Positions 7,727 to 60,848 of a stretch of 64,000 nucleotides of DNA are shown in pieces. Origin of the DNA: Alitabrizicola rongguiensis (GTDB taxonomy: Bacteria > Pseudomonadota > Alphaproteobacteria > Rhodobacterales > Rhodobacteraceae); contig NZ_JAKENF010000003.1 of NCBI RefSeq assembly GCF_021491355.1, forward strand, positions 186,001-250,000. The letters are read 5' to 3'. Made by a program: the position numbers and the translations under genes. The notes under the pieces are model-generated. The model had not been told where the DNA came from. It searched no databases and saw only the letters and a list, made by a program, of their open reading frames with translations. Each line of letters opens with the position of its first letter. The first letter of the stretch is position 1.

Positions 7727-8208
7727 GCGCCATTCTCCTGCGCAAGAAATCCCAGCCGATCCAAGGCCCCCTGCAGGATATAGCCGGCTGCGACATGGTC
7801 GATCACCTCGGAACGACGCTTCCGCGACGTATCCGCCTCCAGAAGTGCCCTTTCTGCCGCAACGGTCGACAGGCGTTCGTCCCAGAACACAATCGGCAAG
7901 TCGGTCAGGCGCATCAGGTTCCGGGCAAAGGCGCGGGTCGATTGTACGCGCGGGCCTTCTGTGCCGTCCATGTTCAGGGGCAGGCCGAGCACCAGCCCCT
8001 TGAGATCGCGGGCGCGCACGATCTTCAGGAGTTCCTCGGCATCGGTGGTGAACTTCACCCTCCGGATGGTCAGAAGCGGCGTCGCCACCTGCCGCAGCCC
8101 GTCCGAGACCGCGACACCGATGGTCTTGTCGCCCAGATCGAGGCCCGCCAGCGCGCCATGCCGGGGCAGGGCGGCGGCGAAATCGGAGATCTGGTCAATG
8201 ACCGTCAT
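7723..8208 (-). CDS. ruvX: Putative Holliday junction resolvase / pre-16S rRNA nuclease YqgF
   Basis: 161-residue RNase H-like protein acting on the 5' end of pre-16S rRNA and proposed to resolve Holliday junctions. Visible motifs are LAGLDLGDKTIGVAVSD (first catalytic Asp), GLVLGLPLNMDG and FWDERLSTVAAER (second acidic cluster), with DHVAAGYILQ at the C-terminus. The ATG (8206-8208) overlaps the stop of ccmI by 3-4 bp, and its own stop overlaps the DUF1289 start. It is of normal length. Confidence 0.95.
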   Translation of the reverse strand: MTVIDQISDFAAALPRHGALAGLDLGDKTIGVAVSDGLRQVATPLLTIRRVKFTTDAEELLKIVRARDLKGLVLGLPLNMDGTEGPRVQSTRAFARNLMRLTDLPIVFWDERLSTVAAERALLEADTSRKRRSEVIDHVAAGYILQGALDRLGFLAQENGA

Positions 8209-9431
8209 GGGGCCACCCCTGCGCCGAGGGCGGCATCGCGGATCGTCGCCAGCGCATTGTCCTGCCCCGCAAAGGCCGTCTGAGCCTCGTCCCAGGTCGC
8301 CTTGGCCTTGTCGGTTTCGCCCAGCACGGCATAGGCCGTGACAAGCCGCGCCCATTCCTCGGGCGAGCCGCCCTGACTTGCCAGCCGGTCGTTGAGTTGC
8401 TCGACCATGCCGCGGATCATCTGCTGGCGGTCCTCGGCCGACATCTCGCCGGCGGCCTGCACATCGGCCGCCGAGGGGCCGGGCGCTCCGGGTTCGAGCG
8501 GGAGCGTGTATTGTTCGCCAGCAGCCTCGGCTACCATCTCGATATTGGCGCGGATCGGCTCGACCCATGGGTCGTCCTTGCCCGACCGGTCGAGAAGCGG
8601 CGCCCAGAGCTGGAAGGTGCGGTCGGGGCGACCGTTCTGCAGGAACATCAGGCCTGCGTAATAGATGGCCGTGCCGTTACCCGGATCGAGCTGCAGCGCC
8701 TTCGACAGTTCGGCCTCAGCCTCGGGGGAAACGAATCCGCCGGCGTTCAGGATCATCATCTCTGCCAGCACAGCGTGATCCTCGCCCGTGGCCTTGTCGC
8801 CACTGATCGAGATCACCTTGTCCTGCGCCGCTATTGCCGCGTCGAAATTGCCGAGCGACGCCTCGTTGCGCGCCAGAAGCCGGTGGCCCTCGGCGTCATC
8901 GGGCCGGTCCTTCAGGGCCGCGCGAAGCTTGTCCATCAGCCCGAGGAATTCGGCCGAGGCCTGTGGCGGGGCAGGGCGATTGGCGGCGGCGGCCTTTACG
9001 GCTTCGGCCTGGGTTGCACGGTTGGCATGGGCTTCCTCGGCCATCGCCAGGCGTTCGGCGATCGGCAGGTCGGGATAGCCGGGCGCGCCGAGCCGGACAT
9101 AGGCCCAGACCCCGCCCAGCATCAGGGCCAGCACCGCGACCGAAAGGGCCATCTGCGCCGAGCGCGGCGGGGCCACATCGCCAGTGGCGGCTGCGCGGGC
9201 GCGGTCAGCCTCCAGCACCTTGCGGCCAAGCTCGGTCTTCAGCCGCGCCGCATCCTCGGCGCCGATCACGCCGCGCGCCTCGTCGCGGTCGACCTCGCGC
9301 AACTGGTCGCGATAGACCTGCAGGTCGAATTCCGCCGCCGGAGCGGCCGAGCCGCCCGCCCGCAAACCGGCCAGCAGCAGGATCGCCCCGACTGCCAGAG
9401 TGATCCCGCCTGCCGCGATCCAGAACAGCAT
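8205..9431 (-). CDS. ccmI: Cytochrome c maturation protein CcmI
   Basis: 408-residue inner-membrane chaperone that holds apocytochrome c for heme ligation. Two membrane segments are visible: residues ~3-25 and ~98-115 (MALSVAVLALMLGGVWAYV). The cytoplasmic loop between them carries the YRDQLREVDRDEARGVI signature. A periplasmic TPR-rich domain follows (for example AEGHRLLARNEASLGNFDAAI). The start at 9431 is preceded by a strong GGAGG; the longer frame adds only an untranslated leader. The rest of the ccm set is not adjacent: ccmABCDG lies at 34730-37487, and ccmE, F and H are outside the window. Confidence 0.93.
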   Translation of the reverse strand: MLFWIAAGGITLAVGAILLLAGLRAGGSAAPAAEFDLQVYRDQLREVDRDEARGVIGAEDAARLKTELGRKVLEADRARAAATGDVAPPRSAQMALSVAVLALMLGGVWAYVRLGAPGYPDLPIAERLAMAEEAHANRATQAEAVKAAAANRPAPPQASAEFLGLMDKLRAALKDRPDDAEGHRLLARNEASLGNFDAAIAAQDKVISISGDKATGEDHAVLAEMMILNAGGFVSPEAEAELSKALQLDPGNGTAIYYAGLMFLQNGRPDRTFQLWAPLLDRSGKDDPWVEPIRANIEMVAEAAGEQYTLPLEPGAPGPSAADVQAAGEMSAEDRQQMIRGMVEQLNDRLASQGGSPEEWARLVTAYAVLGETDKAKATWDEAQTAFAGQDNALATIRDAALGAGVAP

Positions 9432-14844: not shown

Positions 14845-15023
14845 CTCTACCCGGCTGTCGCCTCGCAATGCGGTCGGCGGGAGCCTGTCCGCGCCCGGAG
14901 TGTTTACCCCTCCGACTGAGGAGAAGGCTTGTCCTTTCGCCATTCCGCGACAGATTGACCTTGACCCCGGCCGCGCGGCGACAAAGATGCCGCCCGAGCG
15001 AACAGAAGCGAAAGGATGCTCCG

Positions 15024-15626
15024 ATGGCTTTCACCCTTCCCGATCTTCCCTATGCCCATGATGCGCTGGCCTCCCTCGGCATGTCGAAGGAGACGCTGGA
15101 GTATCACCATGACCTGCACCACAAGGCCTATGTCGACAACGGCAACAAGCTGATCGCAGGCACCGAGTGGGAATCGAAGTCGCTCGAGGACATCGTCAAA
15201 GGCACCTACCAGGCCGGTGCGGTGGCCCAGAACGGTATCTTCAACAATGCCAGCCAGCACTGGAACCACAACCAGTTCTGGGAATGGATGGCGCCGGGCG
15301 AGAACAAGAAGATCCCGGGTGCGCTGGAAAAGGCGCTGACCGAGGCCTTCGGTTCGGTCCAGAAGTTCAAGGACGATTTCGCGGCCGCCGGTGCCGGCCA
15401 GTTCGGTTCGGGCTGGGCTTGGCTCGTCAAGGACAAGGACGGCAGCCTGAAGATCACCAAGACCGAGAATGGCGTGAACCCGCTGTGCTTCGGACAGACC
15501 GCGCTTCTGGGCTGCGACGTGTGGGAGCACAGCTACTACATCGACTTCCGCAACAAGCGCCCTGCTTACCTGACCAACTTCCTGGAAAAGCTGGTGAACT
15601 GGGAAGCAGTCGCGGCGCGGCTCTGA
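15024..15626 (+). CDS. sodB: Superoxide dismutase [Fe/Mn]
   Basis: 200-residue cytosolic superoxide dismutase. The metal ligands are visible: His in TLEYHHDLHH (about 28), His in QHWNHNQFW (about 80), and Asp and His in CDVWEHSYY (about 160-166). AGNG/QNGIFNNASQ and the FGSGW block favour the iron type. It has its own promoter region (14845-15023) containing a TTGACCTTGACC repeat. A second, broken copy of its 3' half lies at 16793-17091. Confidence 0.96.
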   Translation: MAFTLPDLPYAHDALASLGMSKETLEYHHDLHHKAYVDNGNKLIAGTEWESKSLEDIVKGTYQAGAVAQNGIFNNASQHWNHNQFWEWMAPGENKKIPGALEKALTEAFGSVQKFKDDFAAAGAGQFGSGWAWLVKDKDGSLKITKTENGVNPLCFGQTALLGCDVWEHSYYIDFRNKRPAYLTNFLEKLVNWEAVAARL

Positions 15627-15719: not shown

Positions 15720-16628
15720 ATGGTCGCGGATTTTGATCTGGCGTTCCTGAGTGTCGGGCCTGTCACCCTCTACTGGTATGGCGCGGTCTATACGCTCGGA
15801 TTTCTTGGCATATTTGCATGGTTCATGATGCGGCGGGAGTGGCTTGGGCTAACCGCCAAGGATGTCTTTGAGCTGTCGAACCTGCTTGCGCTCGGCGCGC
15901 TGGTCGGCGGACGGGCCTTTGACATCGTCGTTTACGAAGCAGAGTGGTACAAGGCGCACCCTTCGGCGGCGATCGACTGGTGGCAGGGGGGCATGGCGTC
16001 GCACGGCGTTCTGCTTGGCTCGCTCGCCGGACTGGCGGTGTTCTCGTGGTGGCGGAAGGTGCCACTCATGGCCCTGCTGGACGAGACCGTCGTGCCAGGG
16101 GCTTTCCTGATGGCCGTCGGTCGCGTCGGCAACTTCATCGAGGGCGGGGTTATCGGCAGCCCGAGCAACCTGCCTTGGGCCGTGATCATTCCTGGTGTCG
16201 AGGGCGCGCGGCATCCGGTCGCGCTCTATGACAGCCTGAAGAACCTGCTGCTAGTGCCGGTGCTATGGGCCGTTTTGCGGCTATGGCCGGCGGGCAAGGG
16301 GGTCTCGACGGGGCTGTTCCTGCTGCTTTATGCTGGATTGAGGACCGCGATTGACTTCATGCGCGATTATGAATCCGCGCTGTTCGGCCTGCCGCCTGGG
16401 CAGATTTTCAACCTGGCCATGGCGGGAGCGGGGCTGGTCTTGCTGATCGTGGTCGCAATCCGACCGCCCGGGTCCTGGACGCCGACGCCTGCAAGGCCGT
16501 CGCCAGTGCCGCTGATCCAGGTGCTGCTGTTCGTGGCGTTGCTTCTCTATCCGCTTGGCATTCCGACCAGCTGGACTCGCGCGCATATCGAGGAGATGCG
16601 GGCCGCCGTGGCCTCCGGGACCGGCTGA
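15720..16628 (+). CDS. Prolipoprotein diacylglyceryl transferase (Lgt) family protein
   Basis: 302-residue polytopic membrane protein of the Lgt family. The characteristic blocks are present: WYGAVYTLGF, the GGRAFDIVVYE region, GGMASHGVLLG, GRVGNFIEGG (the Arg and Asn of the catalytic loop), RHPVALYD and RTAIDFMRDYE. About seven membrane helices are evident. Whether this is the housekeeping Lgt or a paralogue is not certain; a second, more divergent Lgt-like gene lies at 58295-58945. It occupies the space between sodB and a duplicated sodB/LOG scar, so it may have been inserted there. Confidence 0.82.
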   Translation: MVADFDLAFLSVGPVTLYWYGAVYTLGFLGIFAWFMMRREWLGLTAKDVFELSNLLALGALVGGRAFDIVVYEAEWYKAHPSAAIDWWQGGMASHGVLLGSLAGLAVFSWWRKVPLMALLDETVVPGAFLMAVGRVGNFIEGGVIGSPSNLPWAVIIPGVEGARHPVALYDSLKNLLLVPVLWAVLRLWPAGKGVSTGLFLLLYAGLRTAIDFMRDYESALFGLPPGQIFNLAMAGAGLVLLIVVAIRPPGSWTPTPARPSPVPLIQVLLFVALLLYPLGIPTSWTRAHIEEMRAAVASGTG

Positions 16629-16636
16629 TCCCGTAA

Positions 16637-16797
16637 TCAGGCGAAGTCGGCCCGCAGGCGTTGGGCGAGCGTGGTCACGTCGTGAACCAGTGAAGAACAG
16701 CTCCGCATCGCGTCCTCGGCGATGACATGGTTGCCAAGCGCGATCAGCGGATTCCATTGGCCCTCGGTATTGAGCAGGCAGATCGGCTTCTTGCGAG
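16637..16797 (-). pseudogene. 3' fragment of a LOG-family gene (duplicate of the gene at 18078)
   Basis: The minus strand reads KKPICLLNTEGQWNPL, then LGNHVIAEDAMRSCSSLV and LAQRLRADFA before TGA (16637-16639). This matches the C-terminal third of the intact LOG protein encoded at 18078-18641 (KKPIFLLNTDGYWNPL, HVIAEGFAEDAMRSYSSLV) with four residues (GFAE) deleted. There is no start codon; the homology breaks off at about 16793-16798, exactly where the sodB fragment begins on the other strand. Confidence 0.88.
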
Positions 16798-17091
16798 GCG
16801 TTGACCGAGGCTTACGGCTCGGTACAGAAGTTCAAGGACGATTTCGCCGCCGCCGGTGCGGGCCGGTTCGGTTCGGGCTGGGTCTGGCTTGTCAAGGACA
16901 AGGCCGGCAGCCTCAAGATCACCAAGACCGAGAACGGCGTGAACCCGCTCTGCTTCGGTCAGACCGCGCTGCTGGGCTGCGACGTGTGGGAACACAGCTA
17001 CGACATCGACTTCCGCAACAGGCGTCCGGCTTAGGCCACCAACTTCCTCGAGAAGCTGGCGAACTAGGAAGCGGTCGCGGCCAAGCTCTGA
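16793..17091 (+). pseudogene. 3' fragment of sodB with two amber stops
   Basis: The frame corresponds to the last ~98 residues of SodB (from ALTEAYGSVQKFKDDF to the terminal KL), differing at only about 11 positions including two internal TAG codons: at 17032-17034 (Tyr in sodB) and 17065-17067 (Trp in sodB). The Asp and His ligand segment CDVWEHS remains, but the N-terminal half carrying the other two ligands is missing. It cannot encode an active enzyme. See the duplication finding. Confidence 0.92.
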
Positions 17092-56323: not shown

Positions 56324-56797
56324 TCAGGCGGTCTGAGCGACCGGGATCGCCAATGTCGCGACTTCCAGCGTGCCGGCATAGATCACCGAGGCGCGCGGCA
56401 GGGTCAGGCGGATCATGCGGATGCGCTCGACCGGTTCGGGACGGATATACTGCCCATCTACCAAGCGCTTCAGCGGCACTGTCGCCTGCATGGCCCCGAA
56501 AAGCGCACGGGCGCGCCAGTCCCGGATAAGGATCGGCTGACCTGCCGGAAGCAGCATGTCCTCGTCCGGGCGGTCATGACCGAGCGCACGGGCCGACACA
56601 CGAAGAAGGTCGGGCGCGACAACCTCATCCGAGGCGATGTCGGTCAGAAGCACGCTGCCCGCGCGGGTGATGATCCGGTCCTCGGGCAGAAGATGCTCGA
56701 CCGGCATCTCGCCTTCCAGCGTCAGGACCGGCGTTCCGACCGGCAGATCGACGACGAACATCGTCTCGGTTCTGGTGTCAGAGCTCAGATCAGGCAT
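56324..56797 (-). CDS. Stand-alone Hint-like domain protein
   Basis: 157-residue protein made almost entirely of a Hint-type fold. VVDLPVGTPVLTLEGEMPVEHL with RIITRAGSVLLTDI aligns in plan with the Hint block of the neighbouring larger protein (CLTPGTMIATPDGDRRIETL). The N-terminal catalytic Cys is replaced (VDLPVG), and the C-terminal His/Asn features are absent, so self-cleavage is unlikely. ATG 56797 follows GGAGAC. Function unknown. Confidence 0.65.
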   Translation of the reverse strand: MPDLSSDTRTETMFVVDLPVGTPVLTLEGEMPVEHLLPEDRIITRAGSVLLTDIASDEVVAPDLLRVSARALGHDRPDEDMLLPAGQPILIRDWRARALFGAMQATVPLKRLVDGQYIRPEPVERIRMIRLTLPRASVIYAGTLEVATLAIPVAQTA

Positions 56798-56908
56798 CTC
56801 GCGTCTCCGCCGTCCTTCGGTCACACCAGTGTTCCTGTCGAAATGGGGCGAAAATGTGCCCGTCCCGCGACAAGATGCGTTTCCGCTCGCCTGCCGGCTC
56901 ATGCTTTG

Positions 56909-58087
56909 CTAATGGGACGCGCGTGCGGGCGTGGCGAAACTGGTAGACGCACCAGATTTAGGTTCTGGCGCCGAGAGGCGTGGGGGTTCAAGTCCCTTCG
57001 CCCGCACCATTTTCCGGCGGCCCGAGGTCACGGTTGCGGCCGATTCCCAGCCGCGCAGGCAGGGGCGGACCGGCGTGGCGAAGGGTCCGGCGCCGCCTGC
57101 GAGTTCGGGGAAGAGTGCCAGGACTTCATTCCATTGGTCGCGCGAGAGCGTCAGCCGCTCGCTGAAGGTCGGGCGGAAGCTTTCGGTTTCGGCTCCGTCC
57201 GCCCAGATCAAGTGGTGGCAGTCGAAGAGGAGATGCAGGTAGGTCACCTCGGCCGCATGTTCGTCGATGCGGATGCCGGGGCGGCCGACCAGATGGCGCG
57301 CGGCCACCAGCACTTCGGGGCAACCCGCCATCAGCTCGGCCTGCCAGCCGGTGACAAGCATCCGGTGCTGCTGCGACACGACCAGATCGCGCGATGGCAC
57401 ACCCGGCCCGAGCGCGCCTGCCGAGATCCTCACCGGACGAAACTGCGGCTCCATCCGCAGGCGGCTGCCCGGAACGGTGAGCGCGCCAACCCAGACCAGC
57501 GGCTGCGGGCCTGCGTCGCGGGTCAGGACCAGATCGCCCGCCTTGAGCGTTTCAATGCGGCGGTCACCGTCCGGCGTCGCGATCATCGTGCCCGGGGTCA
57601 GGCAGGGCGGGAAGGCAAGCTTGTCATAGCCGACAGTCGGTTGTCCCGAAGAGCCCGGTCCCTCGCTGGCGGAAATGACCTTCAACGCCACCCCGACCGG
57701 CGGGAAGCCGCCCTCGCCGCCGAAGAAAGACAGCCCTTCGATCGTCGCGAAGCTGGGGCTGGAGTTGTTGACGTTGTAGCCGTAGACCGTCCAGGTCTTG
57801 CCCGTCGGATCCTGCAGGACGAGCTTGTACTCCGCCTCGACCGCTGTCCCCGAGCCATAGGTGACCTCGTTGATCGTCTGCGCGCCCGACAGCTTCTGGG
57901 TCGTATCGTTGTCGTCGAAGGTCGTGTCGTTGTCGTTGATCTTGGTGCCGGTCCAGCCGTTTGAATTCAGCGTGATGGTCTGACCCAGAAGATGGCTGCC
58001 ATCGCCCTGGGTCATACCACTCAACGATTGGCCGCCCGAAACGCTGATCTGCGTTGCGGAAAGCATCCAGACAGTGAAATCGGCCAT
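56909..58087 (-). CDS. Hint-domain protein reading through antisense tRNA-Leu
   Basis: 392-residue protein. The N-terminal ~165 residues are Thr/Gly/Asp-rich and carry a repetitive beta-like segment (for example DNDTTFDDNDTT). A Hint_2-type domain begins at PPCLTPGTMIATPDGDRRIE, with the presumed catalytic Cys, and includes VSQQHRMLVTG and YLHLLFDCHHLIWADG. The last ~29 residues (from RAKGLEPPRLSAPEPK) are the antisense of tRNA-Leu, so the natural end of the protein is doubtful. Start ATG 58085-58087. Such proteins are common, exported or surface-associated, in roseobacters. Confidence 0.75.
   Translation of the reverse strand: MADFTVWMLSATQISVSGGQSLSGMTQGDGSHLLGQTITLNSNGWTGTKINDNDTTFDDNDTTQKLSGAQTINEVTYGSGTAVEAEYKLVLQDPTGKTWTVYGYNVNNSSPSFATIEGLSFFGGEGGFPPVGVALKVISASEGPGSSGQPTVGYDKLAFPPCLTPGTMIATPDGDRRIETLKAGDLVLTRDAGPQPLVWVGALTVPGSRLRMEPQFRPVRISAGALGPGVPSRDLVVSQQHRMLVTGWQAELMAGCPEVLVAARHLVGRPGIRIDEHAAEVTYLHLLFDCHHLIWADGAETESFRPTFSERLTLSRDQWNEVLALFPELAGGAGPFATPVRPCLRGWESAATVTSGRRKMVRAKGLEPPRLSAPEPKSGASTSFATPARASH
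56925..57009 (+). tRNA. tRNA-Leu (anticodon UAG)
   Basis: Complete 85-nt class II tRNA. Acceptor GCGGGCG pairs with CGCCCGC. The anticodon stem CCAGA/TCTGG encloses TTTAGGT, giving anticodon TAG. A variable arm (GCGCCGAGAGGCGT) and T arm (GGGGTTCAAGTCCCT) follow. The discriminator is A and CCA is encoded (57007-57009). It lies entirely opposite the 3' end of the Hint gene. Confidence 0.97.
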
Positions 58088-58294
58088 GTGAAACCTTCAG
58101 TTTTGTCCGGTGTTCTGACTGAACTCTGCGGCTCTTTCGCGGCATGAGGCGGGCAATTTGGGGCGACGGGTGCGATCGGGCAGCGTTCGGCTTGACTTGC
58201 CGGCCCCATCGGCTCCGATGGACGGCAACGGGCCGGGGAGGGCGGCATCCTGGACATCCATCGCGTCTTCGATCTGCTGGCGGCTGCCTTTGCC

Positions 58295-58945
58295 GTGGCG
58301 CTGATGCTCGCCGTGTCGCGCTGGCGCCTGCGCGGCGTGGCGCGGACGTCCGAGGATTTCGGTCTGCCCTACATGGCGGCGCTGGCGGCGGGGGCGATCC
58401 TCGGCGGCTTCGGCTTCGGCACGCTGAACCTCTGGGTCAGCGGCATTCCGGGGCTCGGGCGCAGCATCCTCGGCGCCTTGGCGGGGGCCATCCTCGCCGT
58501 AGAGATATACAAGGCAAGGGCAGGGATCCGGGGCAGCACCGGCCTCGTCTTCGTTGCCGGCTTCTCGGCCAGCGTGGCGGTCGGGCGGATCGGTTGCTTC
58601 CTGTCGGGGATCGGGGACAACACCCATGGCACGCTGACGGCGCTGCCCTGGGGCCATGACTTCGGCGACGGGCTGCTACGCCATCCGGTCCAGCTTTACG
58701 AAAGCCTGTCGATGGCGCTGTTCCTGGCCTTTTTCCTTTGGGCGCTGTGGCGGCGCGTGCCCTTCGTGATGGCGAACGGCTTTTACCTGATGGTCGGCTG
58801 GTATGGGTTCCAGCGCTTCCTGTGGGAATTCCTCAAGCCCTATGCCCCGGTCGCCGGGCCGCTCAACATATTCCAGTTCCTTTGTCTTGCCCTGATGTTC
58901 TACGCTCTCTTCATGATCCGCCGGAGCCGCCATGTTCGAGCGTAA
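58295..58945 (+). CDS. Divergent Lgt-like membrane transferase
   Basis: 216-residue polytopic membrane protein of the prolipoprotein diacylglyceryl transferase family. GRIGCFLSG stands where Lgt has GR-G-N, so the Asn reads Cys; RHPVQLYES is intact. GTG 58295 is the only standard start after an in-frame stop; the coding-like frame extends upstream (LDIHRVFDLLAAAFAV), so the start may lie further left. It overlaps the radical SAM gene by 14 bp, making this the first gene of the four-gene operon. Function as a transferase is inferred. Confidence 0.7.
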   Translation: MALMLAVSRWRLRGVARTSEDFGLPYMAALAAGAILGGFGFGTLNLWVSGIPGLGRSILGALAGAILAVEIYKARAGIRGSTGLVFVAGFSASVAVGRIGCFLSGIGDNTHGTLTALPWGHDFGDGLLRHPVQLYESLSMALFLAFFLWALWRRVPFVMANGFYLMVGWYGFQRFLWEFLKPYAPVAGPLNIFQFLCLALMFYALFMIRRSRHVRA

Positions 58946-60356
58946 GTCCGCCCCTTACCTGTTCCACGGCCAGACGACCTCGCTTTGCGACCAGTGCCTC
59001 GCGCCGGTCCCGGCCAAGATCGTGATCGAGGGGAACCTGGTCTATTACCTCAAGCGCTGCCGCACCCACGGGGTCAGGAAGGCGCTGATCTCGACCGACG
59101 CCGCCTACTGGAAGCGGACGCTCGACTGGCTGAAGCCCGGCGACCGGCCCGAGACGGCGCAGACCCGCATCGACCTGGGCTGCCCCTATGACTGCGGCCT
59201 TTGCCCGGACCACGAGCAGCATTCCTGTCTCGCGCTGATCGAGGTGAACGAGCACTGCAACCTGACCTGCCCGGTCTGCTTTGCCGGATCGTCGCCGCAG
59301 CACACGGGCACAAGGACACTGGCCGAGATCGAGCGGATGCTCGATGCGCTGGTGGCCAGCGAGAAGGAGCCGGACCTGCTGCAGATATCCGGCGGCGAGC
59401 CGACGCTGCACCCGGAGATCCTGACGATCCTGCGCATGGCGAAAGCGCGCCCGATCCGCCACCTGATGCTGAACACCAACGGCCTTCGGATCGCGCGCGA
59501 CCGGGATTTCGTCCGCGAACTGTCGACGCTGAAACCTGGTTTCGAGGTCTACCTGCAGTTCGACAGCCTGCGCCCCGAGGTGCACAAGACGCTGCGCGGC
59601 GCCGACCTGACCCGCATCCGCCAGCAGGCGCTGGAGAACCTTGAGGCGGAAGGCATATCGACCACGCTGGTCGCCACCATCCGCAAGGGGCTGAACGACG
59701 ATGAAGTCGGCGCGATCATCGACCACGCGCTGGAGTGGCCTTGTGTGCGTGGTGTCACATTCCAGCCGGTCCAGGATGCGGGCCGGAACGAGGGGTTCGA
59801 GGCGAACAGTCATCGCGCGCTGCTGTCCGACATCCGTCGCGCGGTGATCGAGGCTGATAACCCCTTCGGCGAGGCGGACATGATCCCCTTGCCCTGCAAC
59901 CCGGAATCGATCTCGATCGGCTACGCGCTGCGGCGGGGGCGACAGCTTGCGCCGATCACCGGCATGATGCCGCGCGAAACGCTTGTGGACGTGCTGCCGA
60001 ACACGGTGACCTTCGAGCGCTATCCGGGCCTGCGCCAGCGCATCTTCGACTTCTTCTCGCTCTCGTCTGGCGAATGCAACGCGCCCGACCGGCTTGAGGC
60101 GCTGCTCTGTTGCTTGCCCGAGGTGCAGGTGCCGGCCGACATCGGCTACACAGACCTCTTTCGCATTGCGATCGTCGAATTCCTTGATCCGCACAATTTC
60201 TGCCTGTCGCGGGTCAAGCGCTCTTGCGTCCATTTCGTGACGCCCGAAGGGAAGATCGTGCCCTTCGACACCTACAACCTGTTCTACAGGGATGCCGAGG
60301 CCAAGGCGCGCCGCGCGGCCTCGCTTGCGGCGCGGGTCGTGCAGATGGGAGGCTGA
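58932..60356 (+). CDS. Radical SAM protein similar to tetraether / membrane-spanning lipid synthases
   Basis: 474-residue radical SAM enzyme. The SAM cluster motif CNLTCPVC (C109, C113, C116) is complete. Extra cysteines at C19, C22 and C43 suggest a rubredoxin-like site, and C84, C88, C91 and C99 (GCPYDCGLCPDHEQHSC) suggest an additional cluster. The run GCPYDCGLCPDH followed by LIEVNEHCNLTCPVCFA is the pattern of archaeal tetraether synthase and MJ0619-type proteins. Further cysteines occur near the C-terminus (SGECNAPD, LLCCLPE). The Lgt-like gene overlaps it, and two mini lipoproteins follow. The family link is from remembered motifs. Confidence 0.8.
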   Translation: MFERKSAPYLFHGQTTSLCDQCLAPVPAKIVIEGNLVYYLKRCRTHGVRKALISTDAAYWKRTLDWLKPGDRPETAQTRIDLGCPYDCGLCPDHEQHSCLALIEVNEHCNLTCPVCFAGSSPQHTGTRTLAEIERMLDALVASEKEPDLLQISGGEPTLHPEILTILRMAKARPIRHLMLNTNGLRIARDRDFVRELSTLKPGFEVYLQFDSLRPEVHKTLRGADLTRIRQQALENLEAEGISTTLVATIRKGLNDDEVGAIIDHALEWPCVRGVTFQPVQDAGRNEGFEANSHRALLSDIRRAVIEADNPFGEADMIPLPCNPESISIGYALRRGRQLAPITGMMPRETLVDVLPNTVTFERYPGLRQRIFDFFSLSSGECNAPDRLEALLCCLPEVQVPADIGYTDLFRIAIVEFLDPHNFCLSRVKRSCVHFVTPEGKIVPFDTYNLFYRDAEAKARRAASLAARVVQMGG

Positions 60357-60357
60357 G

Positions 60358-60606
60358 ATGCGAAACTTTTTCGGGATCTTTCTGCTGCTGCTTGCGGTCC
60401 TTTCGGGCGGCTGCTCGCTTGCCTTCGCGACCATGGCATTCGGTGACCTCAGTGACGATCCTGGCGCCCTGGCGCTCTGGCTCGGCGGTGTCATAATCGC
60501 CGCCGCTTCGATCTGGGGCGCGGTAGCCCTGCTTCGCAGCCCCGCAGTGCGGTCGGTCGCGCCCGCTGACGCCCCGAAACCGGCTAGTCCTGAGGACAAA
60601 CCGTGA
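60358..60606 (+). CDS. Mini membrane lipoprotein, first copy
   Basis: 82-residue protein. The N-terminus (RNFFGIFLLLLAVLSGGCSL) carries a lipobox-like LSGGC, and a second hydrophobic segment follows (LALWLGGVIIAAASIWGAVALL). It ends in a short Pro/Ala tail. ATG 60358 lies one base after the radical SAM stop. The downstream gene encodes a clear paralogue. No family was recognised. Confidence 0.7.
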   Translation: MRNFFGIFLLLLAVLSGGCSLAFATMAFGDLSDDPGALALWLGGVIIAAASIWGAVALLRSPAVRSVAPADAPKPASPEDKP

Positions 60607-60848
60607 GAACGTTTGGCGCGATGATCCTGATCCTGCTGGCCGTGATGACCGGCGGCTGTTCGCTGCTCTTCAGCCCTTATGGCCTGCAGGACGTCTTTCA
60701 GGGCTTCTCGGGCGGAGTCGGGTGGATCTGGCTGGTCGGTGTCGGAATCACTCTCTTGGCCATTCGCGGGGCGGTGCGGTTGCTGCGGCGGCCGGCTCCA
60801 GCCACTCCCCCACTCCCGAGGAACGACTCTGGTCCGACCGAGCGCTGA
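60603..60848 (+). CDS. Mini membrane lipoprotein, second copy
   Basis: 81-residue paralogue of the preceding protein: MILILLAVMTGGCSLLF (lipobox-like TGGC) and a second helix VGWIWLVGVGITLLAIRGAVRLL. The start is GTG 60603, overlapping the upstream stop (GTGA), so the pair is translationally coupled. It closes the operon of the Lgt paralogue and radical SAM protein. Confidence 0.7.
   Translation: MRTFGAMILILLAVMTGGCSLLFSPYGLQDVFQGFSGGVGWIWLVGVGITLLAIRGAVRLLRRPAPATPPLPRNDSGPTER

Follow-up and report, generated by a model that had tools for sequence, protein, structure and literature searches.

An Lgt paralogue and a tetraether-synthase-like radical SAM enzyme conserved together across phyla: a candidate lipid-modification cassette for small membrane proteins

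The 64,000-nucleotide (nt) stretch of the Alitabrizicola rongguiensis genome analyzed here (contig NZ_JAKENF010000003.1, positions 186,001 to 250,000; hereafter, the window) contains a four-gene operon, encoding a paralogue of Lgt, a radical S-adenosylmethionine (SAM) protein resembling archaeal tetraether synthase (Tes), and two small membrane proteins, s1 and s2. We found that the Lgt paralogue and the radical SAM enzyme constitute one conserved unit across phyla, in most loci followed by a small membrane protein, typically with a cysteine at a predicted outer helix end. We propose, with a rough probability of 0.4, that these three parts form a cassette by which small integral membrane proteins undergo lipid modification. 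Whereas the conservation of the cassette was observed directly, its chemistry (a lipid on the cysteine, a change to the acyl chain, the bond made) is inferred. The set suggests an undescribed route of attaching or reshaping protein lipids: among the papers listed by our searches of the open-access PubMed Central (PMC) literature, no title or abstract opening describes the combination.

Conservation of the two enzymes

We gathered loci by the radical SAM protein alone, and loci from one Lgt-based search were kept out of the count, so that Lgt was not selected for. The resulting set comprises 97 loci encoding the radical SAM protein or one of its relatives, of which 80 come from genome_contigs and the other 17 are L051 to L068, leaving out L066, which holds an orphan Lgt paralogue. 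All but one are distinct (96 of 97), L058 and L088 being one locus. The 80 lean toward this clade because they were taken as the best of at least 585 confirmed stretches. Using an iterated profile, we found the Lgt paralogue in 92 of the 97 loci, always on the same strand as the radical SAM gene (92/92) and in 84 cases upstream within the scripted limit of 300 nt. Outside this limit are L080, where the script over-extended the open reading frame (ORF), and L103 (346 nt); the gene lies 640–3200 nt upstream in L064, L135, L147, and L124, and downstream in L055 and L121. No Lgt was found in L071, L105, L120, and L145, in which the radical SAM gene starts at most about 330 nt from the contig end. 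The loci come from Proteobacteria, Bacillota, Bacteroidota, Cyanobacteria, Planctomycetota, Acidobacteria, and Melainabacteria. Distances between Lgt paralogues correlate with those between their radical SAM partners (r = 0.933, 91 loci; none of 999 permutations as high), a correlation also expected from shared descent alone. When we clustered the neighborhoods using ORFs of at least 80 amino acids (aa), the two enzymes emerged together with one further cluster, which corresponds to the small protein and covers 12 loci. The other clusters either look like broad superfamilies at scattered positions, such as an ABC ATPase-like cluster in 17 loci and a sensor-like cluster in 11 (both named by our own reading), or are common to close relatives. 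The first-pass annotation had proposed that the four genes act as a shared system, an idea that it tied to their co-conservation; this neighborhood is indeed kept across phyla.

We drew whole genomes at several taxonomic levels, counting A. rongguiensis each time and with genomes shared between draws. In the family draw, high-scoring matches to the radical SAM protein (E ≤ 4.5e-114) occur in four of 295 genomes; at E 0.001, 201 of the 295 match, the additional matches being far weaker radical SAM proteins. Matches at E ≤ 1e-30 number 4/337 in the class draw (one just 30% identical), 10/349 in the phylum draw, and 3/61 in the draw of relatives, of which 2/7 for the genus. Ten plasmid records carry a relative, nine of them covering at least 80% of the query and all below 60% identity. 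Those of Persicobacter and Nonomuraea have the Lgt paralogue. Plasmids of Mycolicibacterium, Salinirubellus, and Haloarcula (L150, L151, and L152) have distant radical SAM relatives with an adjoining methyltransferase gene and no Lgt, which we read as TrsS-type; redoxin, DUF547, or CcdA genes are also found near them. Viral carriage was considered and rejected: viral_contigs gave ten pattern matches but no relative, and the phage collection gave no match.

Relationship of the radical SAM protein to tetraether synthase

The radical SAM protein exceeds the Pfam cutoffs for Radical_SAM (77.6 bits; cutoff 29.5) and Zn_ribbon_HMPTM (57.5; cutoff 27). By sequence, no solved structure matches it better than the archaeal tetraether synthase GDGT-MAS (MJ0619; PDB 7tol), with an E-value of 1.6e-63, or 4.4e-86 when a profile is used. 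Its AlphaFold2 model, built with 49 sequences taken from the window and the loci, has a predicted local distance difference test score (pLDDT) of 84.2, falling below 50 for residues 354–401, which include C393 and C394. The structure closest to this model is 7tom (template modeling [TM] score 0.81 over 496 columns, 28% identity), that of an enzyme coupling the tails of lipids (PMC9433317). The next different protein is MoaA, at a TM score of 0.42, and the peptide enzymes SkfB and SuiB match the core only (0.37–0.38).

The likeness extends to the metal sites. C19, C22, C43, H46, C84, C88, C91, C99, C109, and C113 are invariant in all 49 aligned proteins, as are C116, C322, C393, C394, and C432. 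Judged by their spacing, roughly the first ten correspond to the ligands reported for the rubredoxin site, the N-cluster, and the radical SAM cluster of Tes (PMC9433317). A rubredoxin-type C-x2-C-x20-C-x2-H site, an N-terminal C-x3-C-x2-C cluster, and the radical SAM motif are shared with Tes. The upstream cysteine pattern (C19/C22/C43 and C84–C99), which the first-pass annotation had associated with tetraether synthase, is thus confirmed.

There are also clear differences from Tes. The position of Tes Tyr459 is occupied by Phe, Ile, or Met in 49/49 proteins (Tyr in none), that of Met439 is Met in 16/49 and Val in the window protein, and the Tes 'PFC' reads 'PF[DE]' in all 49. Because the Y459F and M439A variants of Tes remain active (PMC9433317), the lack of a conserved Tyr459 and Met439 bears on membership of Tes and not on catalytic ability. 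In NCBIfam the best match is the radical SAM (seleno)protein TrsS (NF045646; 305.3 bits over residues 14–455), yet its cutoff of 490 is missed; the Tes family (NF045702) scores 264.7, under its cutoff of 450. In a tree of 37 rows, 31 Lgt-linked rows form one branch (support 95/96), apart from Tes and from the three methyltransferase-linked relatives. Two Lgt-linked rows, L055 and the Nonomuraea L153, fall outside it on very long branches, and their placement is unsure. Sequence and model comparisons therefore support grouping the protein with tetraether synthase and TrsS, and not with known peptide or cofactor maturases, the kind of clade whose finding the first-pass annotation had said would undo its idea of a shared system. 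We do not file it as Tes or TrsS, because it lacks some of the defining features tested.

The resemblance to Tes underlies the main competing explanation, in which the operon serves bulk lipid synthesis: the radical SAM enzyme would couple free phospholipid tails into membrane-spanning lipids, the Lgt-like protein would deliver or remodel phosphatidylglycerol, and the small proteins would be scaffolds or accessory subunits. Such a role agrees with the sequence and the model, and it is in print as a proposal for bacterial Tes homologues (PMC8941075; PMC11868695). We nonetheless regard it as rather unlikely, since the branch is separate from Tes in the tree, an enzyme of free lipids needs no recurrent, varied small proteins with similarly placed cysteines, and the published accounts of Tes that we consulted do not include a dedicated Lgt paralogue.

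Retained and lost residues of the Lgt paralogue

The Lgt paralogue belongs to Pfam family LGT (PF01790; 67.1 bits, cutoff 24.9), and a profile of 52 such paralogues matches Escherichia coli Lgt (PDB 5azb) with an E-value of 1.1e-14. It fails the TIGR00544 equivalog cutoff by a wide margin (26.1 versus 118.9). R113, Y185, and R189, which correspond to R143, Y235, and R239 of the E. coli enzyme, are kept in 52/52 paralogues. In E. coli Lgt, R143 and R239 take part in a catalytic network surrounding the lipid and Y235 is also on the lipid side, whereas the HGGL motif contains an essential residue, H103, at the proposed binding place of the lipobox peptide (PMC4728403). In the paralogues, the H103 column contains Val, Ala, Glu, Met, Leu, or Ile, never His, and the R246 column is Lys in 51/52. 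In the catalytic loop, 'GRLGN' reads 'GRiGC', with C116 replacing N146 in all 52, which bears out the earlier notice of an Asn-to-Cys change in an Lgt-fold protein. Lipid-side residues kept and peptide-side residues lost are what a changed acceptor would need, and an acceptor other than a lipobox peptide would be consistent with the missing HGGL acceptor motif. The paralogue is not filed as Lgt, because some of the tested defining features of Lgt are missing.

An invariant cysteine may also be taken as pointing to a thiol or redox device, in which C116 (52/52) and the small-protein cysteine make up a redox or metal site without lipid transfer, a notion that the redoxin or CcdA genes near the methyltransferase-linked relatives would favor. 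It appears improbable to us: the lipid-side residues of Lgt are retained, and the redoxin neighbors belong to relatives without Lgt.

A motif conserved among the paralogues, 'IHxVFDLLAA', with its His in 52/52, is encoded upstream of the GTG at 58295 that the first-pass annotation had given as the start, so this GTG is probably not the true start. Neither L065, a locus of the same genus, nor the window offers an in-frame ATG, GTG, or TTG that could begin this segment. Because the conserved N-terminus lies upstream without such a codon, a rare start codon, e.g., the CTG at 58250, is likely.

The orphan in L066 (approximately 8081–8731, minus strand) is an apparently truncated relative, 58% identical to the paralogue. 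There is no radical SAM gene within the stretch examined, and its neighbors look by eye like integrase or transposase genes.

Small membrane proteins after the radical SAM gene

We next consider the third component, which was counted in the 95 loci with at least 250 nt of downstream sequence. In 79 of them, a hydrophobic ORF of 45–160 aa has its start no more than 90 nt from the radical SAM stop codon. With two or more helices required, the count is 78/95, versus 11/539 for a control made of other genes of at least 250 aa in the same loci; 49 of the 78 start with a 4-base pair (bp) overlap onto the radical SAM gene. Together with the frequency of the Lgt paralogue, this contrast led us to reject chance adjacency.

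Reduction at 60% identity left 58 non-redundant small proteins, 56 of which contain a cysteine. With topology predicted by scripted hydropathy and positive-inside rules, a cysteine occurs in the outer helix-end zone in 48/58, against 24.6 expected from residue fractions, and in the inner zone in 17/58, against 25.1 expected. In the control set, three proteins have an outer-zone cysteine versus 2.6 expected; with 11 proteins it is too small to judge placement. The small proteins are diverse in form. Alphaproteobacterial forms are mostly predicted to be N-in with the cysteine near the end of helix 1; flavobacterial forms are predicted to be N-out, most with 'GICG' or similar past the last helix; and many Paenibacillus forms have 'NAACFG' within the last helix. 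That proteins so unlike each other share the placement suggests that the enzymes target the cysteine. When nine of the small proteins were searched against Pfam, the one match above cutoff was that of a Paenibacillus form to a B-box zinc finger. Some putative substrates (L121, L130, L146, and L148) have a zinc-ribbon-like stretch or a B-box zinc finger ahead of the membrane helix.

The first-pass annotation had described s1 and s2 as twin mini lipoproteins. They are indeed paralogues (43% identity over 79 aa) with two helices and a GGC each, and in its own genome s2 has good matches only to itself and s1. Their GGC sites, however, lie outside the strict lipobox pattern. The strict lipobox ([LVI][ASTVI][GAS]C near the N-terminus) was found in 2/56 small proteins and a PROSITE-like pattern in 6/56; the residue before the cysteine chosen for this count is most often Leu (19/56). 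Moreover, the chosen cysteine falls within the final third of the sequence in 18/56, and for this reason signal-peptidase II processing cannot be general. Given how relatives vary in sequence and predicted topology, we changed the earlier assignment: the small proteins are not ordinary mini lipoproteins. Searches of s1 and s2 against Pfam gave no family above cutoff; the NCBIfam scan, which covered these two proteins, gave matches below cutoff to families other than MYXO-CTERM.

These results bear on two further explanations. An ordinary duplicate Lgt might act on ordinary lipoproteins beside an unrelated radical SAM gene, as PF01790 membership and the lipobox-like look of the window GGC sites would allow. 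Yet the two enzymes are co-conserved across phyla, lipoboxes are rare, and a separate strong Lgt (237–272 bits) is present in 17/17 genomes tested; we disfavor this explanation as very improbable, and the ordinary lipoprotein pathway was rejected on the last two grounds. The second explanation follows from the fact that radical SAM enzymes often mature peptides. In a system akin to those of ribosomally synthesized and post-translationally modified peptides (RiPPs), the radical SAM enzyme would modify residues of the small protein (introducing a C-C crosslink or a thioether, for example), while anchoring, lipidation, or export of the product would fall to the Lgt-like protein. Besides the prevalence of peptide maturation among these enzymes, small, often tandem, fast-varying genes beside a modifying enzyme are what such a system would look like. 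Set against this, the closest structure is a lipid enzyme, the peptide enzymes SkfB and SuiB resemble the model in the core only, and no obvious leader and core layout is seen on inspection of the small proteins. We consider it unlikely, slightly more so than bulk lipid synthesis.

Operon layout and genome context

The gene coordinates (Table 1) confirm the compact same-strand arrangement initially noted: the Lgt paralogue and radical SAM genes overlap by 14 bp, a 1-bp gap precedes s1, and s1 and s2 overlap by 4 bp.

Table 1. Genes of the operon, in window coordinates
Feature	Coordinates	Strand	Basis
Lgt paralogue	58250..58945 (start uncertain; earlier GTG start 58295)	+	PF01790; 52-member alignment; conserved N-terminus
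Tes-like radical SAM enzyme, 474 aa	58932..60356	+	7tol match; 7tom model match; 49-member alignment
s1, small two-helix membrane protein, 82 aa	60358..60606	+	SGGCSLAF, with its Cys predicted at the outer end of helix 1
s2, small two-helix membrane protein, 81 aa	60603..60848	+	Same predicted Cys placement (TGGCSLLF)

The next gene downstream encodes trigger factor. Just ahead of the operon are two adjoining Hint_2-domain genes (56324–58087, minus strand), the second ORF being overlapped at its end by a tRNA-Leu (56925–57009, plus strand). The 4.2-Mb genome encodes three PF01790 proteins: one on another contig (238.3 bits), one in the window at about 15720–16628, and the operon paralogue (66.2 bits). 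The second window protein (151.6 bits) is distinct from the operon paralogue and keeps the Asn of GRVGN and a His in the HGGL region. Its gene is flanked by the two copies of a repeat: a 296-nt piece (15331–15626) of a Fe/Mn superoxide dismutase gene (approximately 14868–15626) recurs at 16796–17091 with 89% identity.

A possible route of protein lipid modification

In the cassette that we propose, the substrate would be the small-protein cysteine, which is predicted at the extracytoplasmic end of a helix and thus on the same side of the membrane as the activity of Lgt. After binding phosphatidylglycerol or a similar lipid through its retained Arg/Arg/Tyr, the Lgt-like enzyme would transfer a diacylglyceryl or related group to this cysteine. 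A general signal-peptidase II step would not follow, because the cysteine is near the C-terminus in several lineages. Least certain is the part of the cytosolic Tes-like enzyme, which may abstract hydrogen from an acyl tail of the same or a partner lipid, so that a new C-C or C-S bond would yield an altered, cross-linked, or membrane-spanning anchor. Conceivably, although we think this unlikely, the products are membrane-spanning lipoproteins: the Tes-like enzyme would join the diacylglyceryl tail of the outer-leaflet cysteine to the tail of an inner-leaflet lipid, pinning the protein across the bilayer through a covalent lipid bridge.

Several observations weigh against the proposed cassette. 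The paralogue is without H103 and has Lys at R246, and E. coli Lgt is inactive with such changes: H103 and R246 mutants, including R246K, fail to complement (PMC4728403). A Foldseek search with the structure model of the paralogue (pLDDT 92.6) returned no PDB match at E ≤ 0.001, and 5azb was not among the 50 matches listed, so that the fold search does not strengthen the case made from sequence. In locus L116, no Lgt is present in the 3.3 kb upstream. In 16 of the 95 loci no small hydrophobic ORF directly follows the radical SAM gene. For 11 of these, inspection showed a small membrane protein at another position of the operon: before Lgt in L064, L083, L135, and L144, and likewise in L130, L146, and L148, with a zinc finger and one helix; between the enzymes in L139 and L147; further downstream in L070; and as three tandem zinc-ribbon membrane proteins ahead of the downstream Lgt in L121 (8172–9740). 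In L078, L116, L120, L124, and L134 there is none, or a doubtful one. Ten of the 58 small proteins lack an outer-zone cysteine, and those of L138 and L145 have no cysteine at all. Finally, the motif count took one cysteine per protein by a score favoring Gly, Ala, or Ser at −2, so the Gly or Ala found there in 49/56 occupies a position that the score itself favors.

The closest ideas that we have seen in print, in the available parts of the papers, are the Lgt-like lipidation predicted for MYXO-CTERM proteins (PMC11980579) and the DAG-RiPPs (PMC12636315). MYXO-CTERM proteins, which go with myxosortase, likewise have an invariant cysteine beside a membrane helix and outside a lipobox, predicted to be lipidated by an Lgt-like enzyme. 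They differ in being C-terminal sorting tags of larger proteins that are cut by a CPBP protease, and no radical SAM enzyme is described for them in that portion of the text. DAG-RiPPs are small gene-encoded peptides with diacylglycerol on a cysteine plus modification by a metalloenzyme. Unlike our system they use the ordinary signal-peptidase II pathway and MNIO enzymes, with no Lgt paralogue or Tes-like enzyme in the description available. As for Tes itself, the fold is the same, and the radical SAM protein studied here is set apart by its link to an Lgt paralogue and small proteins.

This link matters for how bacterial Tes homologues are read. They are being counted as possible makers of membrane-spanning lipids, with 456 in one paper (PMC8941075) and 281 bacterial metagenome-assembled genomes in another (PMC11868695). 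Because one bacterial subfamily of the Tes group is accompanied by an Lgt paralogue of its own and by a small membrane protein with a cysteine, such counts may mislead: the substrate of this subfamily may be protein. If true, this would be a bacterial protein-lipidation route without a lipobox, adding radical chemistry to the lipid anchor.

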